From Nonomuraea sp. MG754425 (lineage in GTDB: Bacteria > Actinomycetota > Actinomycetes > Streptosporangiales > Streptosporangiaceae): 64,000 nucleotides of DNA. Shown here piece by piece: positions 15,979 through 27,059 of the stretch (the stretch's first letter is position 1; the number at the start of each line of letters is the position of its first letter). The translations under genes were made by a program, and so were the position numbers. The notes beneath the pieces are model-generated. The model was not told the origin of the DNA, did no database searches, and worked only from the letters and a program-made list of their open reading frames with translations. The stretch spans positions 1-64,000 of the forward strand of contig NZ_SSXE01000026.1 in assembly GCF_021699195.1 (NCBI RefSeq), read 5' to 3'.

Positions 15979-16368
15979 TCATCCGCGCACGGCGGCGAAG
16001 GTCACGGTCGTGCCCGCGGGCCCGGACACGATCGTGATGTGCTCGCACAACATGCTGGTCAGCCACAGGCCCCGCCCGCGGGACTCGAACCCGCCGGGCG
16101 GGCGCATGTCGCCCATCCAGCCGGCGGGCAGCCCGGGGCCCTCGTCGCTGATCTCGCACCACAGCCGCCCGCCGGTCGACCACAGCCGCAACCGCCCGTG
16201 CCCGCCGCCGTGCACGACCGCGTTGGTGGTGAGCTCGTTGACCGCCAGCACGAAGTCCTCCAGCCGCCTGCCGGTCACCCCCTCGTGGCCGGCGTGCTCG
16301 GCGACCGTGCGGCGCAGCGACGTGATGCGCCCCCGCGCGAAGGCGGCGCAGAGCACCTGTCTACACAT
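15979..16368 (-). CDS. Anti-sigma-type serine kinase / HATPase_c_2 protein
   Basis: A 129-residue GHKL-fold ATPase. N-box NELTTNAVVHGGG, G1 DEGPGLPAGW and G2 GGFESRGRGLWLTSML define the ATP site of the RsbW/SpoIIAB-like family. Such proteins bind an alternative sigma factor or phosphorylate STAS-domain antagonists. The ATG at 16368 overlaps the end of the MEDS-STAS gene by eight bases (GATGTGTAG), so the two are co-expressed and probably partners. A STAS gene lies divergently at 17336. The controlled sigma factor is not in the window. Confidence 0.9.
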   Translation of the reverse strand: MCRQVLCAAFARGRITSLRRTVAEHAGHEGVTGRRLEDFVLAVNELTTNAVVHGGGHGRLRLWSTGGRLWCEISDEGPGLPAGWMGDMRPPGGFESRGRGLWLTSMLCEHITIVSGPAGTTVTFAAVRG

Positions 16369-17197
16369 CGCCCACCCGGCGCACGGTGACGAACTCGTCC
16401 GCCCTGATCAGCCGGAGCACCCGGGCGACGGGGTCGCGGCACACGACTTCGGTGGCCCCGCGTGGCCGGGCCATCGCCGTGGCGGTCAGCAGCCGCGCCG
16501 AACCGGCGTCGATGAAGTCCAGCCCGGACGCGTCGATCACGACCGGCCCGGGCTCCTTCTCCAGCCGCGCCAGCAGCGAGGCGAACGCCGGCCGGTTGGT
16601 GAGGTCGATGTCGCCCCACACCCGCAGGCCCGGCGGCCGGCACGAGCCGGCGAAACGCAACTGCGCCTGCTCGGGCGAGATCGGGTGCACGGCGGAGACC
16701 CGGTCGATGGCCTCGCGGGGGAACAGGGCCCGGTCGTACTGGCAGACCGCGGCCAGCCAGCGCTGCCCGAACAGCTCGTTCGTCGCGGCCTCGAACGCCG
16801 CCTGCCCGGGGGCGTCGTCCACTCCCCAGGACGCGTCGACCAGCGCGTACACGCCGTGCTGGCCGTGCTTGCGGGCCCGGTCGTAGGCGTCGGCCAGCCC
16901 GGCGCACACCCGCCCGGGGTCGAGGCTGCCGCCGGTGAAGTGGGTCTCGGCGCTGGCCAGGATCTCGATCCGGCCCGCGGACTCGGCGTCGGCGAACCCG
17001 GGCACCAGCGGCGCCAGCCAGCCGCGCGTCCGCTCGGGGCTGTCGGTGTGCGTGATGATCACCACTCTGGTCCGCCGGCGCAGCCCGTTCATCGTGAACA
17101 GCCGGGTCGCCGTCATCCGCTCCCGCTCGCCGTCGAACGGCAGGCAGACGTGATCACCGAGATCGGGATCGAGGACGGAGCCCGCGACGTGCACCAC
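16361..17197 (-). CDS. MEDS-STAS domain sensor / anti-sigma antagonist
   Basis: About 278 residues. The start is taken at GTG 17197 because GGGGAAGG precedes it by five bases; the frame extends to 17383 but that part lacks coding character. Residues ~10-165 form a MEDS (DcmR-type sensory) domain: DHVCLPFDGERERMTATRLF, VVIITHTD, EILASAETHF, GVYALVDASWG and ICQYDR-like VCQYDRALF. The C-terminus is a STAS domain: LRVWGDIDLTNRPAF and VVIDASGLDFIDAGSARLL. The usual phospho-acceptor Ser/Thr pair is replaced by DAGS. MEDS domains are thought to bind hydrocarbon-derived signals. Together with the downstream kinase-like gene it likely forms a partner-switching module. Confidence 0.85.
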   Translation of the reverse strand: MVHVAGSVLDPDLGDHVCLPFDGERERMTATRLFTMNGLRRRTRVVIITHTDSPERTRGWLAPLVPGFADAESAGRIEILASAETHFTGGSLDPGRVCAGLADAYDRARKHGQHGVYALVDASWGVDDAPGQAAFEAATNELFGQRWLAAVCQYDRALFPREAIDRVSAVHPISPEQAQLRFAGSCRPPGLRVWGDIDLTNRPAFASLLARLEKEPGPVVIDASGLDFIDAGSARLLTATAMARPRGATEVVCRDPVARVLRLIRADEFVTVRRVGDV

Positions 17198-17335
17198 GAT
17201 GACCTTCCCCCAAGCACTCGTCCGGACGAAATTACCCTGATCCCCGCCATCACGTAGCGCATTCTCTGCAAAACCTACTGTGACGCGATGCAGACAGGTG
17301 TACCTTTTCCGGCGGGGCCGCCCACGGGAGGGGTA

Positions 17336-17689
17336 ATGAGGAGCATGGGCGTGGATGTGCTGGAGATGTCGAGGCGCCGACACGGGGAACTCGTGGTGGT
17401 CAGCCTGACGGGCGAGATGGACCTGGACAACGTGTCACAGGTGCGCAGGTGCCTGGACGAGGCGGTGGCCACGCCCGAACCCCGGCTGGTGGTCGATCTG
17501 AGCGGGCTGACCTTCATCGACACCACGGGGCTGGGGGTGCTCGTGCGGATGCTCGCCTCGCTGCGCGACCGGAACGGGACCATGGCGCTGGTGGCGCAGG
17601 ACGGGCAGGTGCTGCGCCGCCTGCGGCGGACCAACCTGGCGCCGCTGTTCCCCATCTACGACACGCTGTCGGCGGCCCTGACCGCCTGA
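17336..17689 (+). CDS. STAS-domain anti-sigma factor antagonist
   Basis: About 117 residues from ATG 17336, preceded by GGGAGGGG; in-frame ATGs at 17288 and 17345 are alternatives. Classical SpoIIAA/RsbV features are LVVVSLTGEMDLDNVSQVRRCL, RLVVDLSGLTFIDTTGLGVLVRML and RNGTMALVAQDGQVLRRL. The phosphorylation position is a Thr-Thr pair in FIDTTGLG. It is divergent from the MEDS-STAS/kinase operon, so all three probably act in one switch: unphosphorylated antagonist binds the kinase-type anti-sigma and frees a sigma factor. The cognate sigma gene is not in the window. Confidence 0.9.
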   Translation: MRSMGVDVLEMSRRRHGELVVVSLTGEMDLDNVSQVRRCLDEAVATPEPRLVVDLSGLTFIDTTGLGVLVRMLASLRDRNGTMALVAQDGQVLRRLRRTNLAPLFPIYDTLSAALTA

Positions 17690-17729: not shown

Positions 17730-18086
17730 ATGGATGGCATGTCCCTTGACCCCAAGATCGCCGCCCGGTTGAAGCGCAACCCCGAGGGCCTGGTGCCCGC
17801 CGTCGCCCAGCAGTACGACACCGGCGAGGTGCTCATGCTGGCCTGGATGAACGACGAGGCGCTGCACCGGACCCTCACCACCGGCAGGGCCACCTACTGG
17901 TCCCGCAGCCGGGGGGAGTTCTGGGTCAAGGGTGACACCTCCGGGCACGTCCAGCACGTCAAGTCGGTGGCGCTCGACTGCGACGGCGACACCGTCCTGG
18001 TCAAGGTGGACCAGGTGGGCGCGGCGTGCCACACGGGCGAGCGCACCTGCTTCGACGCCGACCGGCTCGAGATCGCGCTCGGCTAG
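17730..18086 (+). CDS. hisI: Phosphoribosyl-AMP cyclohydrolase
   Basis: About 115-118 residues (ATG 17730 or 17739). It opens the adenine ring of PR-AMP in the third step of histidine synthesis. The family motifs are all present: [64 protein letters not shown] (metal-binding Asp residues) and [12 protein letters not shown] (zinc Cys residues). The HisE pyrophosphohydrolase domain is absent, as usual in actinobacteria. It is separated from the main his operon by about 8 kb and begins a his-trp junction; the next gene starts four bases after its stop. Confidence 0.96.
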
Positions 18087-18089
18087 GTC

Positions 18090-18680
18090 GTGGACACGCG
18101 TACGAGTGCCGAGAGGCCGGCCGCCGCGCGCCGGGAGCTGTGGGGCTGGGTGGCGGCGACCGCGCTCGGCTGCCTCCTGGTGCTGATCGCCGCGGGCAGC
18201 GCCTGGGTGCGGGTCACGCAGGGGGAGTCGGCGGCGCCCACGGGAGGAGACCTGAGCCCCGCGCTGACGCCCGTGGCGCTGGCCGGACTGGCCGGGGTGG
18301 TGGCGGTGCTGGCCACGCAAGGAGTGGGCCGCCGTCTCGTCGGCGCGCTGGTCGCGCTGTGCGGCGCGGGCGCGGCGGTGGCGACCTGGACGGCGCTGCG
18401 CGGCGCGAACGTCACCGGCTGGCTGAGCGAGCAGAACGCGCTGCGCGGCGTCACCGACGTCCCGTGGGAGGTCGTGCCCGTCTGGCCGGTCGTCGCGGCG
18501 GCCGGGGCCGTGCTGATGGTGGCGGGCGGCGTCGTCGCGATCGTGCGCGGCCCGGGATGGGCCGGCATGTCGGCCCGGTACGAGCGCGACCCCGCCCAGG
18601 GCGCGCAAGCGCAGGTCAAGGACGACAAGGCGCTCTGGGACGCGCTCGACAGGGGAGACGACCCGACCGATCGCCGCTGA
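18090..18680 (+). CDS. Trp-region conserved membrane protein (TIGR02234 family)
   Basis: GTG 18090, 196 residues, four predicted membrane helices: [59 protein letters not shown] and VWPVVAAAGAVLMVAGGVVAIV. The WVRVTQ motif after helix 1 and the Trp/Pro-rich loop are features of the TIGR02234 family found beside trp genes in actinobacteria; its function is unknown. In many relatives trpE lies between hisI and this gene. Here the start is only four bases after the hisI stop, so trpE is absent and the two are directly coupled. Confidence 0.85.
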   Translation: MDTRTSAERPAAARRELWGWVAATALGCLLVLIAAGSAWVRVTQGESAAPTGGDLSPALTPVALAGLAGVVAVLATQGVGRRLVGALVALCGAGAAVATWTALRGANVTGWLSEQNALRGVTDVPWEVVPVWPVVAAAGAVLMVAGGVVAIVRGPGWAGMSARYERDPAQGAQAQVKDDKALWDALDRGDDPTDRR

Positions 18681-18744: not shown

Positions 18745-18764
18745 TAAGCTGCCGTTGCAACTCG
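18745..18764 (+). promoter_or_regulatory. Shared upstream element (copy 1) with -10-like TAAGCT
   Basis: TAAGCTGCCG, three bases, then CAACTCG lies about 25-45 bases upstream of the gene at 18790. Nearly the same string, TAGGCTGCCG followed by GCAACTCG, occurs at 19524-19544 before the gene at 19578. TAAGCT and TAGGCT both fit the actinobacterial -10 pattern TAnnnT, so this is probably a common promoter start region. Confidence 0.55.
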
Positions 18765-18789
18765 CGACGAACCTTTGAGGAGCCAGCTC

Positions 18790-19413
18790 ATGACCTACGG
18801 GGATCAGGGCGCCAATGGCGGTTACGGCCAGCAGCCGCCGAGCGGGGACGGCGGCTACGGCCAGCAGCCCCCCGGCTACGGCGGCGGCTACGGTCAGCAG
18901 CCTCAGAGCGGGGGCGGCCAGCAGCCCGGTTACGGGCAGCAGCCGCCGAGCTACGGCGGCGGGTACGGCGATCAGCCGCCCAGCCACCCGCAGAACCTCG
19001 GCTACGGCCAGCTCCCCCCGAGCGGCGGCTTCGGCCAGCAGGGTTACGGGCAGCAGGGTTATGGCCAGCAGAGCTACGGGCAGCCCGGTTACGGTCAGCC
19101 GGGCTACGGGCCGTACGGCCCGCCGCAGCCCTCGCGTCCGACCAACGGCATGGCGGTGGCCTCGCTCGTCCTCGGGATCATCGGGCTGGCCTTCTGCGGG
19201 CTCACCAGCATCCCGGGCGTGATCCTCGGGCACATCGCGCTCAACCGGATCAAGAAGACCGGCGAGGACGGCTCGGGCCTGGCCATGGGCGGCCTGGTCA
19301 CGTCGTACATCACCGTGGTCATCTGGGTGTTGTGCTGGGTGTTCTTCGGCGGCTTCTTCCTGTGGATGCTCGGTCTGAGCGCCGCCGCGACGTCGTCCAC
19401 GTACGAGTATTAA
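18790..19413 (+). CDS. DUF4190-type membrane protein with Gly/Tyr/Gln/Pro-rich N-terminus
   Basis: ATG 18790 has GAGGAG seven bases upstream; 207 residues. Residues ~1-118 are low-complexity repeats of [15 protein letters not shown] and related units. Residues ~120-200 hold two membrane segments separated by a charged loop ([19 protein letters not shown], then [27 protein letters not shown], then [19 protein letters not shown]), the DUF4190 arrangement. The loop GHIAL.RI.. is characteristic. Tyr/Gln-rich tails of this type occur in actinobacterial membrane proteins and may self-associate, which is inference. It pairs with a second protein with the same tail at 19578. Function unknown. Confidence 0.88.
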
Positions 19414-19441
19414 CCCGCCGGTAACGTGAGACGCGCGTAGC

Positions 19442-19469
19442 CGGACCGTGACGAGCCGCTTGCGGTCCG
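19442..19469. terminator. Possible hairpin after the DUF4190 gene
   Basis: CGGACCG (19442-19448) and CGGTCCG (19463-19469) form a perfect 7-bp stem with a 14-base loop, 28 bases after the stop. There is no T-tract. A second palindrome, TGGACG-TT-CGTCCA, follows at 19490-19503 and lies just upstream of the next promoter element, so it may instead be an operator. Confidence 0.4.
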
Positions 19470-19523
19470 ATTACGAATTGTCCGCAAAATGGACGTTCGT
19501 CCACGTAGAAGATGCTTTATCGC

Positions 19524-19544
19524 TAGGCTGCCGCGCGCAACTCG
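19524..19544 (+). promoter_or_regulatory. Shared upstream element (copy 2) with -10-like TAGGCT
   Basis: TAGGCTGCCG, then GCAACTCG, about 35-55 bases before ATG 19578; matches copy 1 at 18745 apart from a few bases. Conservation between two non-homologous 3' halves but similar 5' regions suggests promoter duplication or shared control. Confidence 0.55.
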
Positions 19545-19577
19545 AACTCAAAGATGACGACATGAGGGGTCATTAGC

Positions 19578-20153
19578 ATGAGTTACGGAAACCAGGGCGA
19601 CGGCGGCTACGGCGCGCAGCCACCTGGCGGCGGTTACGGCCAGCAGCCGCCGAGCGGCGGTGGCTACGGTCAGCAGCCTCCGTCCGGCGGTGGCGGTTAC
19701 GGCCAGCAGCCCCCGTCCGGCGGTGGCGGCTACGGCGGTGGCTACGGTCAGCAGCCTCCGTCCGGTGGCGGCGGTTACGGCCAGCAGCCCCCGAGCGGCG
19801 GCGGCTACGGCGGCGGTTACGGCCAGCAGCCTCCGTCCGGCGGTGGCTACGGCGGCGGTTACGGCGCGCCCGGCGGCGGTGGCAACCCGCCGGACAACCA
19901 GCTCGTCCCGGCCATCCTCACCACCCTGCTCTGCTGCCTACCCCTGGGCATCGTGGCGATCATCAAGTCGTCGCAGGTGAACCAGAAGTGGCAGATCGGC
20001 GACTACGCCGGCGCCCAGCAGGCGGCCGACGAGGCCAAGACGTGGTGGAAGCGCAGCCTGATCGTGGGCGCCATCGGCCTCGGCCTGATCGTCATCGCCT
20101 ACGTGCTGTTCTTCGTGATCCTGGCCGCCAGCGTGTCCACGTCGACGTACTGA
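19578..20153 (+). CDS. CD225/dispanin-family membrane protein with [10 protein letters not shown] repeats
   Basis: ATG 19578, 191 residues. Residues ~1-100 repeat [11 protein letters not shown] about six times. The C-terminal part is a dispanin/CD225 domain: PDNQLVPAILTTLLCCLPLGIVAII (first membrane segment with the family Cys-Cys-Leu-Pro motif), SSQVNQKWQIGDYAGAQQAADEAKTWWKRS (intracellular loop), and a second helix LIVGAIGLGLIVIAYVLFFVILAA. Eukaryotic relatives include interferon-induced transmembrane proteins; bacterial members are widespread but unassigned. It has the same kind of N-terminal tail and promoter element as the gene at 18790, suggesting the two act together. Confidence 0.9.
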   Translation: MSYGNQGDGGYGAQPPGGGYGQQPPSGGGYGQQPPSGGGGYGQQPPSGGGGYGGGYGQQPPSGGGGYGQQPPSGGGYGGGYGQQPPSGGGYGGGYGAPGGGGNPPDNQLVPAILTTLLCCLPLGIVAIIKSSQVNQKWQIGDYAGAQQAADEAKTWWKRSLIVGAIGLGLIVIAYVLFFVILAASVSTSTY

Positions 20154-20213: not shown

Positions 20214-20645
20214 ATGAGCCTCGCAACAACCGGGCGGCAAGGGACGCGTCGCGTCAAGGAGCTGCTCGCGCCGCTCGGTGTTGCGGCCGCCACCGGAGCC
20301 GTGTTCGCGGTCGTCGGCATGGTCGACCCCAACGAGCCGGGTCACTACCCGACCTGCCCGTTCCTGTGGCTCACCGGCCTGTACTGCCCGGGTTGCGGCT
20401 CGCTGCGCACCATTCACGCGCTGGCCCACCTCGACCCGGTCGCCGCCCTCGGCCTCAACCCCCTCGCCGTCGCCATGATCCCGCTCCTGGTGTTCTGGTG
20501 GGGCCGATGGGTGGTCCGGGCGTGGCAGGGCAGGCCGCGGCGCACCACGCTGGCGCACCCGGCGTGGCTGTGGGCGTTCCTCGCGATCGTCATGATCTAC
20601 TGGGTCGTCCGTAACCTGCCCTTCGGGGCGTTCCTCGCGCCTTGA
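20214..20645 (+). CDS. DUF2752 membrane protein
   Basis: A 143-residue protein with three predicted helices: [36 protein letters not shown] and [18 protein letters not shown]. The central block [37 protein letters not shown] carries the conserved CPxCGxxR motif of DUF2752; the Cys pair could bind metal or be redox active. It is transcribed with trpC, and its stop lies 131 bases before the trpC start at 20777. Function unknown. Confidence 0.88.
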
Positions 20646-20776: not shown

Positions 20777-21616
20777 GTGAGTGAGCGGACGGAAGGGCCG
20801 AGCGTCCTTGACGACATCCTCGAAGGGGTGCGCGCCGACCTCGCCGCACGTCAGCAGGCCGTCTCGATTGACGAGCTCAAGCAGCGGGCCGAGCGGGCGC
20901 AGGCGCCCAGGGACGCCATGGCCGCGCTGGGCGGCGACCGCGTCTCGGTGATCGCCGAGGTCAAGCGGTCCAGCCCGTCGAAGGGCGCGCTCGCCGCGAT
21001 CGCCGACCCGGCCGCGCTGGCGGCCGACTACGAAGCGGGCGGCGCCCACGTCATCAGCGTGCTGACCGAGCGGCGCAAGTTCGGCGGCAGCCTCGACGAC
21101 CTGGCCGCGGTGCGCGCCCGGGTCGACATCCCGATCCTGCGCAAAGACTTCATCCTCACCTCCTACCAGCTCTGGGAGGCCCGCGCCCACGGCGCCGACC
21201 TCGCCCTGCTCATGGTCGTGTGCCTGGAGCAGGAGGCGCTGGTGTCGCTCATCGAGCGGGCCGAGTCGATCGGGCTCACCCCGCTGGTCGAGGTGCACAC
21301 CGACGACGAGCTCGAGCGGGCGGTGGCCGCCGGGGCCCGGGTCATCGGGATCAACGCGCGCAACCTGAAGACACTCGAGGTCGATCGCGACGTCTTCACG
21401 AAGCTGGCGCCGAAGATCCCCGATAATGTGCTCAAGATTGCCGAGTCGGGCGTGCGCGGCCCGCACGACCTGCTCGCCTATGCCCGTGGCGGCGCCGACG
21501 CCGTCCTCGTGGGGGAGAGCCTGGTCACCGGCAAGGACCCGCGCAAGGCAGTGGAGGCGCTGGTGACGGCCGGCGCTCATCCGTCGACGCGCCCCGACCA
21601 CTCAGCAGAGGGATAG
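20777..21616 (+). CDS. trpC: Indole-3-glycerol phosphate synthase
   Basis: A 279-residue (beta-alpha)8-barrel that closes the indole ring from Cd[17 protein letters not shown] holds the catalytic Glu and Lys of the first strands; [64 protein letters not shown] and [11 protein letters not shown] are typical. GTG 20777 ([18 protein letters not shown]) is preferred: a GGAGGG lies upstream and the frame's longer N-terminus (from 20642) is Pro/Asp-rich and not family-like. trpB follows after two bases. Actinobacterial operons use PriA for the preceding isomerase step. Confidence 0.95.
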
Positions 21617-24512: not shown

Positions 24513-24658
24513 GAGTAATTTTTAACTTGGGTGGGTAAATGTCGCAACTCTCCCAGGTCGGCGGCGGAAAACTCGCTTAGCTGACGCTTATCCGCAGCGT
24601 GATCGTATGTAGGCCGGGTACTGTGCGCCTTCCTGGCGCAGAGACAGAGGAGATACTT

Positions 24659-25186
24659 GTGGCCGCGTCACCGACGTCACCATGGGCGAGAACAGCGATA
24701 CCCTGGGTGACGACCGTCGCCCGGCTGGTGCTGGGCGGGGTGCTGATCGCGGCGGGTGCGCTCAAGATCGGCAACCCGGCCGACTCCGTCGTGGCGGTCA
24801 AGGCCTACCAGTTGCTGCCCGAGTCGATCGCCGTCGCGGTGGGCTACGCCCTGCCGATCCTGGAGATCGTGGTCGGTGTGCTGCTGGTCGTCGGCCTGCT
24901 GACCCGAGTGGCCGCGGTGATCGCCGGGCTGCTCATGTTCGCGTTCGTCTTCGGCATCGCCTGGGCGTGGGCGAAGGGCCTGCGGATCGACTGCGGCTGC
25001 TTCGGCGGCGGGGGCCAGCTCGGGGCGGGGCAGGAGCCGACCTACCTGCTCGACATCCTGCGCGACTTCGGCCTCGTGCTGCTCGGGGCGTGGACCGCGC
25101 GCTTCCCGCCGGGCCGGTTCGCGCTCGACGGGGCCCTCGGTCTCGGGGGCGACACACACCACGACGGTGACGAGGGGGACGACTGA
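24659..25186 (+). CDS. MauE/DoxX-type redox-associated membrane protein
   Basis: About 175 residues from GTG 24659, with GGAGAT five bases upstream; an in-frame GTG at 24599 would precede the ribosome site. Four membrane helices: VTTVARLVLGGVLIAAGALKI, AVAVGYALPILEIVVGVLLVVGLL, RVAAVIAGLLMFAFVFGIAWAWA and a C-terminal span near LLDILRDFGLVLLGAW. A conserved CGCFGG motif follows helix 3 and is typical of MauE-like proteins that supply or take electrons to periplasmic thioredoxins. A DsbA-like gene follows with a one-base overlap (TGATG), supporting a redox pair. Confidence 0.87.
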   Translation: MAASPTSPWARTAIPWVTTVARLVLGGVLIAAGALKIGNPADSVVAVKAYQLLPESIAVAVGYALPILEIVVGVLLVVGLLTRVAAVIAGLLMFAFVFGIAWAWAKGLRIDCGCFGGGGQLGAGQEPTYLLDILRDFGLVLLGAWTARFPPGRFALDGALGLGGDTHHDGDEGDD

Positions 25187-25950
25187 TGGGCAAGGGCGAG
25201 CGTACGAAGACACAGACGCAGTCGGCGCGCGAGAAGATCAAGGCGCAGCAGGCCGCGCAACGCACCCGCGACAAGCGCCGCAAGACGGTGACGTACGTGA
25301 CCGCGGGCGCGGTCGCGGTCGCCGCGGTCGGGCTCGGCTGGTGGTACGCCGCCAGCATCTCCCGCTCGGAGGAGGCCACCGGCGCGCTCGCGCCGATCAC
25401 CGTCCAGCCCGACGGCACCGCCGTGATGGCCCAGAGCGGCGTCACCAAGCCGGTCGTGGACATCTACGAGGACTTCCAGTGCCCGGCCTGCAAGGAGCTC
25501 GAGCGCGTCAGCGGCCAGACCTTCAAGAACCTCGCCGCCGAGGGCAAGGCCAAGGTCGTCTTCCACCCCATCACGATCTTCTCGCAGGAGCCGACCAAGT
25601 CGAACTCGGTGCGCGCGGCCAACGCCGCCCGGTGTGTCGCCGACGGCAAGCAGTGGCTGGCCTTCCACGACCTGCTCTTCAAGAACCAGCCCTCGGAGAC
25701 CGTGGAGGGCTTCAAGCCCGACCAACTCCTGCAGTGGGGCACGGACGCCGGGGTCACCGCCCCCGGCTTCGAGCAGTGCGTGACCTCGAACAAGAACGCC
25801 GAGGCGCACCTCGCGTACAGCAAGAAGATCAGTGACGAGCAGAAGCTCACGCACACGCCGACAGTGAAATTGAACGGTAAGGAAATCGACAATCCGGTAC
25901 TGTTCAGCCCGTCGCAACTCCGTAAAGAGATTTCGGAGGCGGCTAAGTAG
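25186..25950 (+). CDS. Membrane-anchored DsbA-like thioredoxin (thiol:disulfide oxidoreductase)
   Basis: A 254-residue protein: Lys/Gln/Arg-rich cytoplasmic start, one membrane anchor (TVTYVTAGAVAVAAVGLGWWYAA, about 37-58), then a DsbA-type thioredoxin domain facing outside. The active site is CPAC in VDIYEDFQCPACKELERV. FHPITIFSQ, AARCVADGKQWLAFHDLLF and the cis-Pro motif THTPTVKLNGKEI are visible. It likely forms disulfides in secreted proteins, with the upstream MauE/DoxX protein as a membrane redox partner. Translationally coupled to that gene. lgt follows 26 bases on. Confidence 0.92.
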   Translation: MGKGERTKTQTQSAREKIKAQQAAQRTRDKRRKTVTYVTAGAVAVAAVGLGWWYAASISRSEEATGALAPITVQPDGTAVMAQSGVTKPVVDIYEDFQCPACKELERVSGQTFKNLAAEGKAKVVFHPITIFSQEPTKSNSVRAANAARCVADGKQWLAFHDLLFKNQPSETVEGFKPDQLLQWGTDAGVTAPGFEQCVTSNKNAEAHLAYSKKISDEQKLTHTPTVKLNGKEIDNPVLFSPSQLRKEISEAAK

Positions 25951-25962
25951 GCTCGCTTCCGC

Positions 25963-25968
25963 TACCCT
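25963..25968 (+). promoter_or_regulatory. -10 box (TACCCT) close to the lgt start
   Basis: TACCCT is followed by eight bases and ATG 25977, with no ribosome site. It suggests lgt can be transcribed independently as a nearly leaderless message besides read-through from the DsbA gene. Confidence 0.45.
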
Positions 25969-25976
25969 CACCTGAC

Positions 25977-27059
25977 ATGCCCCTTGCCTCGATTCCCAGC
26001 CCTTCTCAAGGGGTCTGGTATCTCGGAATCATCCCGATCCGGGCTTATGCGCTATGCATCGTGCTCGGTGTCATCGTCGCGGTCTGGCTGAGCGAGCGCC
26101 GCTGGCGCGCTCGCGGCGGCCAGCAGGGGACGATCATCGACATCGCGGTCCCCGCGGTCATCTTCGGCCTCATCGGCGGTCGTCTCTACCACGTCATCAC
26201 CGACTGGCAGACCTACTTCGGCAGCCGTGCGATCAAGGAGCCCATCCAGGCCCTGTTCATCTGGGAGGGCGGGCTCGGCATCTGGGGCGCGGTCGCCCTC
26301 GGCGGGGTCGGCGTCTGGTTCGCCGCGCGCAGACGCGGCCTGTCCATGACGGCCCTCGCCGACACGATCGCGCCCGGCATCGCCTTCGCCCAGGCCATCG
26401 GCCGCTGGGGCAACTGGTTCAACCAGGAGCTCTACGGCTCGCCCACCACGCTGCCGTGGGGCCTGGAGATCGACGTCGACCACGGCGGCGAGCCCGGCGT
26501 CCTGTACCACCCGACCTTCCTGTACGAGTCGCTGTGGGACGTCGCGCTCGGCTTCCTGCTCATCTTCCTGGGCCGCCGCCTGGCGCTGCACCACGGGCGG
26601 TTGTTCGCCCTCTACGTCGCCGGTTACACGCTCGGCCGCTTCTGGATCGAAGGGCTGCGCATCGACCCGGTCGGCGGGGTCGACCACGCCGTGCTGTTCC
26701 TCGGGTTGCGGATCAACCAGTGGACCTCGATCGTGCTGTTCGTCGCCGCACTGGTGTACTTCTGGGCGACCAGGAACAAGACGGGCGAGGAGATCGTCGT
26801 GTCGCCGACGTCCTCCGACGGTCCCGAAGCGGCGTCCGCCGATCCGGAGCACGAATCCGGCCAGGCCGACCCGGGCACGGGCGAGTCGTCCAAGGCCGAC
26901 CCGGCGGAGTCGTCCGGAGCGGCGGAACCGGAAGGCAGCGCCGCCACGGGTGACGGCCCGAAGGCGGAAGACGCCGCCTCAGACGTCTCCGCCGGAGGCG
27001 ACGAGCGTGCGGAGCCAGCCGACGCCGAAACCGTGACGAAGGAGAAGAACTCCCGATGA
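25977..27059 (+). CDS. lgt: Prolipoprotein diacylglyceryl transferase
   Basis: A 360-residue membrane enzyme that transfers diacylglycerol from phosphatidylglycerol to the lipobox Cys of prolipoproteins. Seven-helix body with family motifs: IRAYALCIVLGVIVAVWLSERRW, IFGLIGGRLYHVI (catalytic-region Arg and His), GGLGIWGAV, ARCHAETYPE-like FAQAIGRWGNWFNQELYG (the Lgt signature) and HPTFLYESLWD. About 95 extra C-terminal residues (Glu, Ser, Ala, Asp, Pro-rich, from ~270) form a cytoplasmic acidic tail, longer than in E. coli Lgt and common in actinobacteria. Several lipoproteins in this window would be its substrates. The stop overlaps the VIT1-like start (ATGA). Confidence 0.95.
   Translation: MPLASIPSPSQGVWYLGIIPIRAYALCIVLGVIVAVWLSERRWRARGGQQGTIIDIAVPAVIFGLIGGRLYHVITDWQTYFGSRAIKEPIQALFIWEGGLGIWGAVALGGVGVWFAARRRGLSMTALADTIAPGIAFAQAIGRWGNWFNQELYGSPTTLPWGLEIDVDHGGEPGVLYHPTFLYESLWDVALGFLLIFLGRRLALHHGRLFALYVAGYTLGRFWIEGLRIDPVGGVDHAVLFLGLRINQWTSIVLFVAALVYFWATRNKTGEEIVVSPTSSDGPEAASADPEHESGQADPGTGESSKADPAESSGAAEPEGSAATGDGPKAEDAASDVSAGGDERAEPADAETVTKEKNSR

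Follow-up and report, generated by a model that had tools for sequence, protein, structure and literature searches.

Here we report that two membrane-protein families, CD225 (the dispanins) and DUF2752, are encoded side by side near-constantly across bacterial phyla, and away from the his-trp cluster as well as in it. The locus that led to this finding lies in a 64,000-nucleotide stretch (the window) of contig NZ_SSXE01000026.1 from Nonomuraea sp. MG754425, of the order Streptosporangiales in the phylum Actinomycetota. A preliminary description of the window had singled out a DUF4190 gene and a CD225 gene between hisI and trpC and proposed that their products together form an uncharacterised membrane module. 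Both genes lie where it placed them and match their Pfam families, and the pair does sit between hisI and trpC, flanked by two genes absent from that description, one for a TIGR02234-type protein and one for a DUF2752 protein (Table 1). We think it rather probable that this locus is one lineage's form of a widespread membrane module in which CD225 and DUF2752 are the fixed core and DUF4190 is optional. The proposed module is recurrent and has matched N-terminal regions, or handles, whereas DUF4190 plus CD225 as its unit does not stand: these two mostly alternate, and the constant partner is DUF2752.

Within the order, CD225 was matched in 71 of 121 genomes and DUF2752 in 120. CD225 neighbourhoods came from the 40 best-scoring of the 71 genomes, besides the window's own; 20 DUF2752 neighbourhoods came from 19 of the 50 genomes in which CD225 was not matched plus one (G107) whose CD225 match fell below the cut-off. 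Genes in all of them were assigned with profiles seeded with the window's proteins. The gene order hisI–TIGR02234–slot–DUF2752–trpC, in which the slot takes CD225 or DUF4190, is plain in most of these loci. DUF2752 lies on the same strand and within 0.26 kb of CD225 in 38 of the 40 neighbourhoods; the exceptions are L055, cut off by a contig edge, and L060, where 7.4 kb are inserted. The his-trp cluster holds 35 of the 40 CD225 loci; the other five (L036, L039, L040, L043 and L050) show no his-trp genes and keep the pair, all belonging to one genus (g18) and two of them (L040 and L043) lying near contig ends.

The association extends beyond the order. In a phylum survey of 129 genomes, CD225 was matched in 12 (one below cut-off) and DUF2752 in 35; all 12 CD225 genomes carry DUF2752, compared with 23 of the 117 others (Fisher p 3e-8, a test that here and throughout ignores kinship, related genomes not being independent). 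DUF2752 lies within 0.3 kb at 10 of 13 CD225 places, in the window's own genome and nine others, so that outside the own genome it adjoins CD225 at 9 of 12. A scan of named genomes then yielded 79 CD225 loci from about ten phyla (Actinomycetota, Chloroflexota, Planctomycetota, Verrucomicrobiota, Bacteroidota, Acidobacteriota, Pseudomonadota, Cyanobacteriota, Bacillota, Hydrogenedentota and others), which are not independent because they stem from the best 80 of at least 579, were preselected by two peptide patterns and are rich in Xanthomonadaceae. DUF2752 is present in 75 of the 79 and within 0.5 kb in 72, the greatest distance being 1.6 kb with a transposase in between (L133). PF10825 matches all 68 DUF2752 proteins considered, the window's and 67 non-redundant ones from the multi-phylum loci. 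In Bacteroidota DUF2752 is adjacent in each of the three CD225 loci, one of them in the seed genome.

These surveys bear on two explanations that look to the his-trp cluster. The proteins might stand together solely through operon inertia, with no functional link, as the gene order kept in most fetched loci of the order would allow; we consider this very improbable, because the pair occurs without hisI or trpC in five of the 40 order loci (one genus), in many phyla and at all nine adjacent phylum loci outside the own genome, where neither gene was seen in the stretches examined (two of them, L117 and L123, short). A role in tryptophan or histidine metabolism would fit the position in the order, where the trp genes have TIGR02234 and DUF2752 next to them, and outside the order DUF2752 is again beside trpC in L124 and L126; the same nine loci speak against it, and we hold it to be highly unlikely. 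Instead, the module's place by trpC would reflect the long-standing presence of DUF2752 in that cluster in this order, rather than a part in tryptophan synthesis.

DUF4190 behaves as an optional member. It occurs in 6 of the 35 his-trp loci with CD225, all six in the window's genus, versus 15 of 20 loci without CD225 (Fisher p 3.5e-5); with that genus excluded the figures are 0 of 29 versus 14 of 19 (p 2.4e-8), and both p-values overstate the alternation because the genomes are related. The slots of the 20 DUF2752 neighbourhoods hold DUF4190 in 15 cases and neither gene in five. Co-occurrence in relatives, which the preliminary description had expected, is real: both genes are found in seven of eight genomes of the genus (the window and six of the 40, the only such cases among the fetched order loci), the eighth (L085) having DUF4190 alone, and DUF4190 was found by its own profile in 13 of the 79 multi-phylum loci, with none in the stretch examined in the other 66. 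We also scanned 271 proteins flanking CD225 (up to three simply called genes per side, 60–900 residues, from 50 loci chosen of the 79) against Pfam. DUF4190 accounted for 9 of 135 proteins in one set, where it came first, and 3 of 136 in the other, below MFS_1 and DZR (four each) and level with others; its summed count of 12 is the highest among the families listed (at most 25 per set), followed by Zn_Ribbon_1 with 11 and MFS_1 with 7. Other small membrane proteins are rarer neighbours (DUF4870, 3 of 135; TM2, 3 of 136). A two-protein module of DUF4190 and CD225, with DUF2752 a bystander, would suit the likeness of tails, promoters and S/T/Y-containing C-termini within the window's genus and the mostly matched handles of the 13 multi-phylum loci. 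We nevertheless rate it as quite improbable, given the alternation in the order and the lack of DUF4190 in 66 of 79 stretches, against DUF2752 in 75.

Where the two proteins do meet, their N-termini tend to match. Those of the window share a low-complexity N-terminus, as the preliminary description reported: both start M(T/S)YG(D/N)QG and continue with coding GYGQQPP-type repeats, and such tails are found on both proteins in the window's genus. Such tails also occur outside the pair. A further DUF4190 protein of the window's genome (L033) has, by eye, a P/Q/G/Y-rich tail, and a protein with an MTYGN..GGYPPPQ tail lies between a shortened DUF4190 and DUF2752 in L075 (5195-5845) and L078 (4944-5855), the L075 protein being RDD by Pfam (E 3.5e-24). 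Outside the order, a zinc-ribbon pattern is present on both proteins at 11 of 14 loci with DUF4190 and CD225 (L117, L136, L143, L144, L147, L152, L153, L157, L161, L178 and L187), on neither at three and never on one alone (Fisher p 0.003), compared with 29 of 110 CD225 proteins overall; at L141 both proteins carry a GYF_2-like module by eye. Judged by these sequences, the kept feature would be the pairing of like handles and not the chemistry of the tail, which generalises the earlier observation, and lineage habits may explain part of the matching. A distant phylum member has DUF4190, CD225 and DUF2752 in a row, with zinc ribbons on the first two and no hisI or trpC in the stretch examined (L117:112-2232). 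Another handle type is an N-terminal FHA domain on a CD225 protein (L194:4310-4879; Pfam E 2.9e-18).

The partner itself is strongly conserved. C58, C61, G62, R65, N82, R133 and N134 are invariant in 68 of 68 DUF2752 sequences, C48 is kept in 67, H68 in 56 and H72 in 53; the window's protein has the CPxCG motif as C58-P-G-C61-G62. Its predicted model (mean predicted local distance difference test score, pLDDT, 88.2; predicted template modelling score, pTM, 0.74) has long helices at 6-36, 83-104 and 116-134, and the cysteines lie among short ones between. The loop joining helices 2 and 3 carries on average 3.1 Lys plus Arg against 0.5 Asp plus Glu, which by the positive-inside rule would put the cysteine segment and the C-terminal RN outside; the Cys/Arg/Asn set therefore probably faces outward. 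Comparison with profiles for MauE and DsbA from this cluster gave no convincing match (P 0.23 and 0.011).

For the CD225 protein the model is less certain (mean pLDDT 63, tail mostly below 50). Residues 1-103 form the GYGQQPP tail, predicted to be disordered, and helices are predicted at 109-119, 123-140 and 143-190. The dispanin motifs, given in PMC3282796 as a double cysteine, G-D and an A-x6-A loop, are present as C119-C120, G141 followed by D, and A146 with A153; as the double cysteine belonged to the search pattern, its invariance in sequence set A4 is not independent.

Although the preliminary description called the DUF4190 and CD225 cores unrelated, profile scores establish neither kinship nor its absence. 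The comparison gave a colinear match (probability 86.5) with P 4.6e-6 in one direction and 4.5e-5 in the other, ranging from 4.6e-6 to 1.3e-4 by direction and alignment, against 0.011 for the best other pair; a narrower first comparison gave 0.0033. DUF4190 of farther genomes scored 6.9e-7 against CD225, and DUF4190 of the order alone 0.008. We do not claim core homology, because the reversed-profile control (probability 71, P 3.7e-5; also 2.1e-4) spoiled the match. Other features join the two within the order. An MSYG head is found in 45 of 52 CD225 and 19 of 22 DUF4190 proteins, with start codons chosen partly by that motif, and Tyr is among the three C-terminal residues of 43 of 52 CD225 and 11 of 22 DUF4190 proteins, compared with 0 of 61 DUF2752, 0 of 56 TIGR02234, 1 of 51 DsbA and 10 of 49 MauE proteins. 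Because slot, promoter block, head and S/T/Y-rich C-termini are shared, we favour, as a reading of these sequences, exchangeable relatives or swapped cores within the order. The stronger proposal, that DUF4190 and CD225 here descend from a single slot gene whose core changed by divergence or swap, leaving exchangeable subunits and not two distinct functions, gains from the same slot, head, Tyr end and promoter block before either core and from the colinear match. The reversed control, the score of the order's own DUF4190 and the limited reach of the Tyr end (26 of 110 CD225 and 0 of 14 DUF4190 proteins in other phyla) count against it, as does the rejection of gene conversion between tails, which are equally alike within genomes (0.821) and between them (0.819). 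It has, in our estimate, somewhat less than an even chance.

The upstream regions of the slot genes are also alike. The shared block noted earlier is exact: it reads TAAGCTGCCG-TT-GCAACTCG before the DUF4190 gene and TAGGCTGCCG-CGC-GCAACTCG before the CD225 gene. The promoter element is shared, but the transcription starts once placed at 18745 and 19524 would lie about 12 bp further on, those positions being the -10-like hexamers. The pattern GCTGCCG-N(1-4)-GCAACTCG occurs five times in the 11.3-Mb genome (once in a backward-read control); two of the five are these upstream blocks, and the remaining three appear, by eye and unannotated, to lie within coding sequence. Similar blocks precede the same slot in other genera, whether it holds CD225 or DUF4190. 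The lowest possible shuffle p (0.005) was reached in 22 of 74 upstream regions, 14 in the window's genus and eight elsewhere (CD225 L044, L045 and L052; DUF4190 L079, L081, L083, L087 and L091), with L046 (p 0.01) and L076 (p 0.015) next best. Under the rule used, 40 of the 74 regions had no block match, 39 of these belonging to CD225 genes of other genera.

A second, 18-nucleotide element reached p<=0.01 in 20 of the 74 regions, including that of the window's CD225 gene; the window's DUF4190 gene missed this threshold. In 19 of the 20 regions (seven in the window's genus) it lies 52-54 bp upstream of the -10-like hexamer, no hexamer having been found in L084, while the distance from hexamer to ATG varies from 39 to 54 bp among these regions of fixed spacing. 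Ungapped identity among eight representatives is 0.72 in the element, 0.81 around the -10, 0.37 in between and 0.48 over the next 12 bases. All these p-values are optimistic, because both consensuses were derived from the same sequences on which they were tested. The element may be a candidate regulator site, such as that of a response regulator. A consensus sigma-70 promoter was looked for and none was found, from which we infer a probably activator-dependent promoter. A reading as a DnaA box was dropped, as the 9-mer with one mismatch occurs at chance level in the window (8 versus 5.6 expected). By eye, the element has the look of a direct repeat, CACAA-N6-CACAA.

Several points weigh against a general CD225–DUF2752 module, in addition to the kinship and preselection already mentioned. 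Three phylum CD225 places lack an adjacent DUF2752 (G216 C8, G228 and the sub-cut-off match in G199). At L178 and L183 DUF2752 is elsewhere in the genome and not at the CD225 locus, and at L172 and L182, where a contig edge falls at the locus, it was found nowhere in either genome. Few Bacteroidota genomes carry CD225 (3 of 118), and DUF2752 is the commoner of the two in the window's order (120 versus 71 of 121 genomes), so that it presumably has a working role apart from CD225 too. By eye, the N-terminal modules of DUF4190 and CD225 do not match at L155 and L176. The case for an active site is one of conservation, because the DUF2752 model matches no solved fold: in searches of the PDB, Foldseek gave a best E of 5.2 (none at E<=0.001) and VIA-align a best Z of 3.0 (root-mean-square deviation 6.0, 85 aligned); we make no claim of a novel fold. 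The module is known here from gene order, sequence conservation and models of single proteins. Weighing these points with the surveys, we are confident that CD225 and DUF2752 make up a real functional module, and we lean towards the view that its proteins form a physical complex.

As to how such a module might work, DUF2752 would provide a three-helix membrane core whose Cys/Arg/Asn cluster at the outer face could act as a thiol, metal or ligand site. CD225 and DUF4190 would be two-helix hairpin subunits binding DUF2752 in the membrane, and cytosolic handles (the Gly/Tyr/Gln/Pro tail here; zinc ribbon, GYF_2 or FHA elsewhere) could cluster complexes or recruit a cytosolic partner. We rate this combination of site and handles as rather doubtful in its specifics. 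A wider idea, which we put forward tentatively, is that bacterial dispanins are standing subunits of a DUF2752-centred inner-membrane complex with an outward Cys3/Arg/Asn site and interchangeable hairpins (CD225, DUF4190, perhaps TM2), whose handles select the partner. On this view CD225 would have begun as an accessory subunit tuning another membrane protein, a partner since lost by vertebrate IFITMs.

Bacterial dispanins are the proposed source of the animal IFITM and PRRT2 proteins, which raises the question of antiviral function. An anti-phage system ancestral to IFITM restriction would draw on that homology and on the restriction of influenza in human cells by mycobacterial CD225 proteins, described in PMC4488726. 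We judge it most unlikely: PADLOC matched none of seven module proteins (E<=0.01), and among 135 flanking proteins, one of the two flanking sets, no PADLOC family had more than two matches among the best 25 of 71 families. The sole phage copy found is a partial CD225-like match in an unannotated phage record (MT839860.1:3589-3729, E 1e-7).

The proteins belong to known families, and the new part is the module as a functional unit. Dispanins are known in bacteria (PMC3282796 and PMC4488726), and their bacterial role was unstudied as of 2015 according to the latter. The window's CD225 protein shares with the IFITM and PRRT2 family the CD225 core, CC, G-D, the A-x6-A loop and a disordered N-terminal region (PMC3282796), but has a Gly/Tyr/Gln/Pro-rich repeat tail and a near-constant DUF2752 neighbour, of which we found no description. 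The DUF4190 protein has the family's tail and small membrane core and differs in its tandem with CD225 in the window's genus, other fetched order loci having DUF4190 without CD225. The DUF2752 protein has the CPGCGxxR motif and all invariant residues and differs in being a standing partner of CD225. TM2, DUF4870 and RDD proteins are likewise occasional neighbours of CD225 or slot occupants, but are rarer than DUF4190 in the flanking scans. We know of no function for DUF2752. In the open-access literature searched, no paper came up for DUF2752 or DUF4190 by name, and none was found that links CD225 to one of these families; public neighbourhood databases may already show the CD225–DUF2752 link. 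A near-constant partner with an invariant polar site offers a first lead on the bacterial role of IFITM relatives, and the module provides a testable context for DUF2752 and DUF4190 together with a natural series of exchangeable N-terminal handles.

Table 1. Features of the window around the slot between hisI and trpC.
Feature	Position	Strand	Basis and remarks
hisI	17730-18086		Left part of cluster
Trp_oprn_chp/TIGR02234-type membrane protein	18090-18680	+	Conserved left neighbour of slot; Pfam PF09534 E 1.6e-39, cut-off passed; NCBIfam TIGR02234 53.5 bits, below cut-off 71.15; synteny
-10-like element and initiation block of DUF4190 gene, TAAGCTGCCGTTGCAACTCG	18745-18764	+	Sequence; genome-wide rarity; conserved in genus
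DUF4190 protein	18790-19413	+	Pfam PF13828 E 2.4e-21, residues 121-181; 75.7 bits (gathering 35); G/Y/Q/P tail of about 115 residues, then core
Upstream 18-nucleotide element TTACGAATTGTCCGCAAA (consensus TCACAACTTGTCCACAAA)	19471-19488	+	53 bp upstream of -10-like hexamer of CD225 gene
-10-like element and initiation block of CD225 gene, TAGGCTGCCGCGCGCAACTCG	19524-19544	+	Sequence; rarity; upstream-region survey
CD225/dispanin protein	19578-20153	+	Pfam PF04505 E 3e-23; 82.2 bits (gathering 27.1); predicted model
DUF2752 membrane protein	20214-20645	+	Pfam PF10825 E 1.8e-17; 63.6 bits (gathering 27); model; conservation
trpC, right neighbour	20777-21616	+	Pfam PF00218, NCBIfam TrpC; start read from sequence, probably GTG at 20777 preceded by GGAGGG

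The window's genome (11.3 Mb in 641 contigs) has one match each for CD225 and DUF2752 and three for DUF4190, two of them over the Pfam cut-off; its DUF2752 protein shares 91.6% identity with a stretch of N. gerenzanensis, and the genome is close to Nonomuraea. Right of trpC lie trpB, trpA, MauE, DsbA-like and lgt. The last three (24599-27059) follow trpA in most fetched order loci, a thiol/lipoprotein group attached to the trp cluster. Beside hisI (16361-17689) lie genes for a MEDS-STAS regulator (minus strand) and a STAS protein (plus strand), and STAS adjoining hisI is confined to the window's genus among the fetched loci.

Some individual loci show further arrangements. In L114 (G216 C8) CD225 stands without DUF2752 in the stretch examined; another CD225 of that genome is paired with DUF2752. 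The Victivallis genome of L178 has, apart from its CD225 locus, a DUF2752 gene with an adjoining DUF4190-like open reading frame (L218). Finally, a small membrane protein with the pattern HG(N/H)Tx(S/A)AW is encoded around the slot in L057, L093 and L094, where it precedes CD225 or DUF2752; the L093 protein has no Pfam match, and we take the three to be HGxxPAAW-like.

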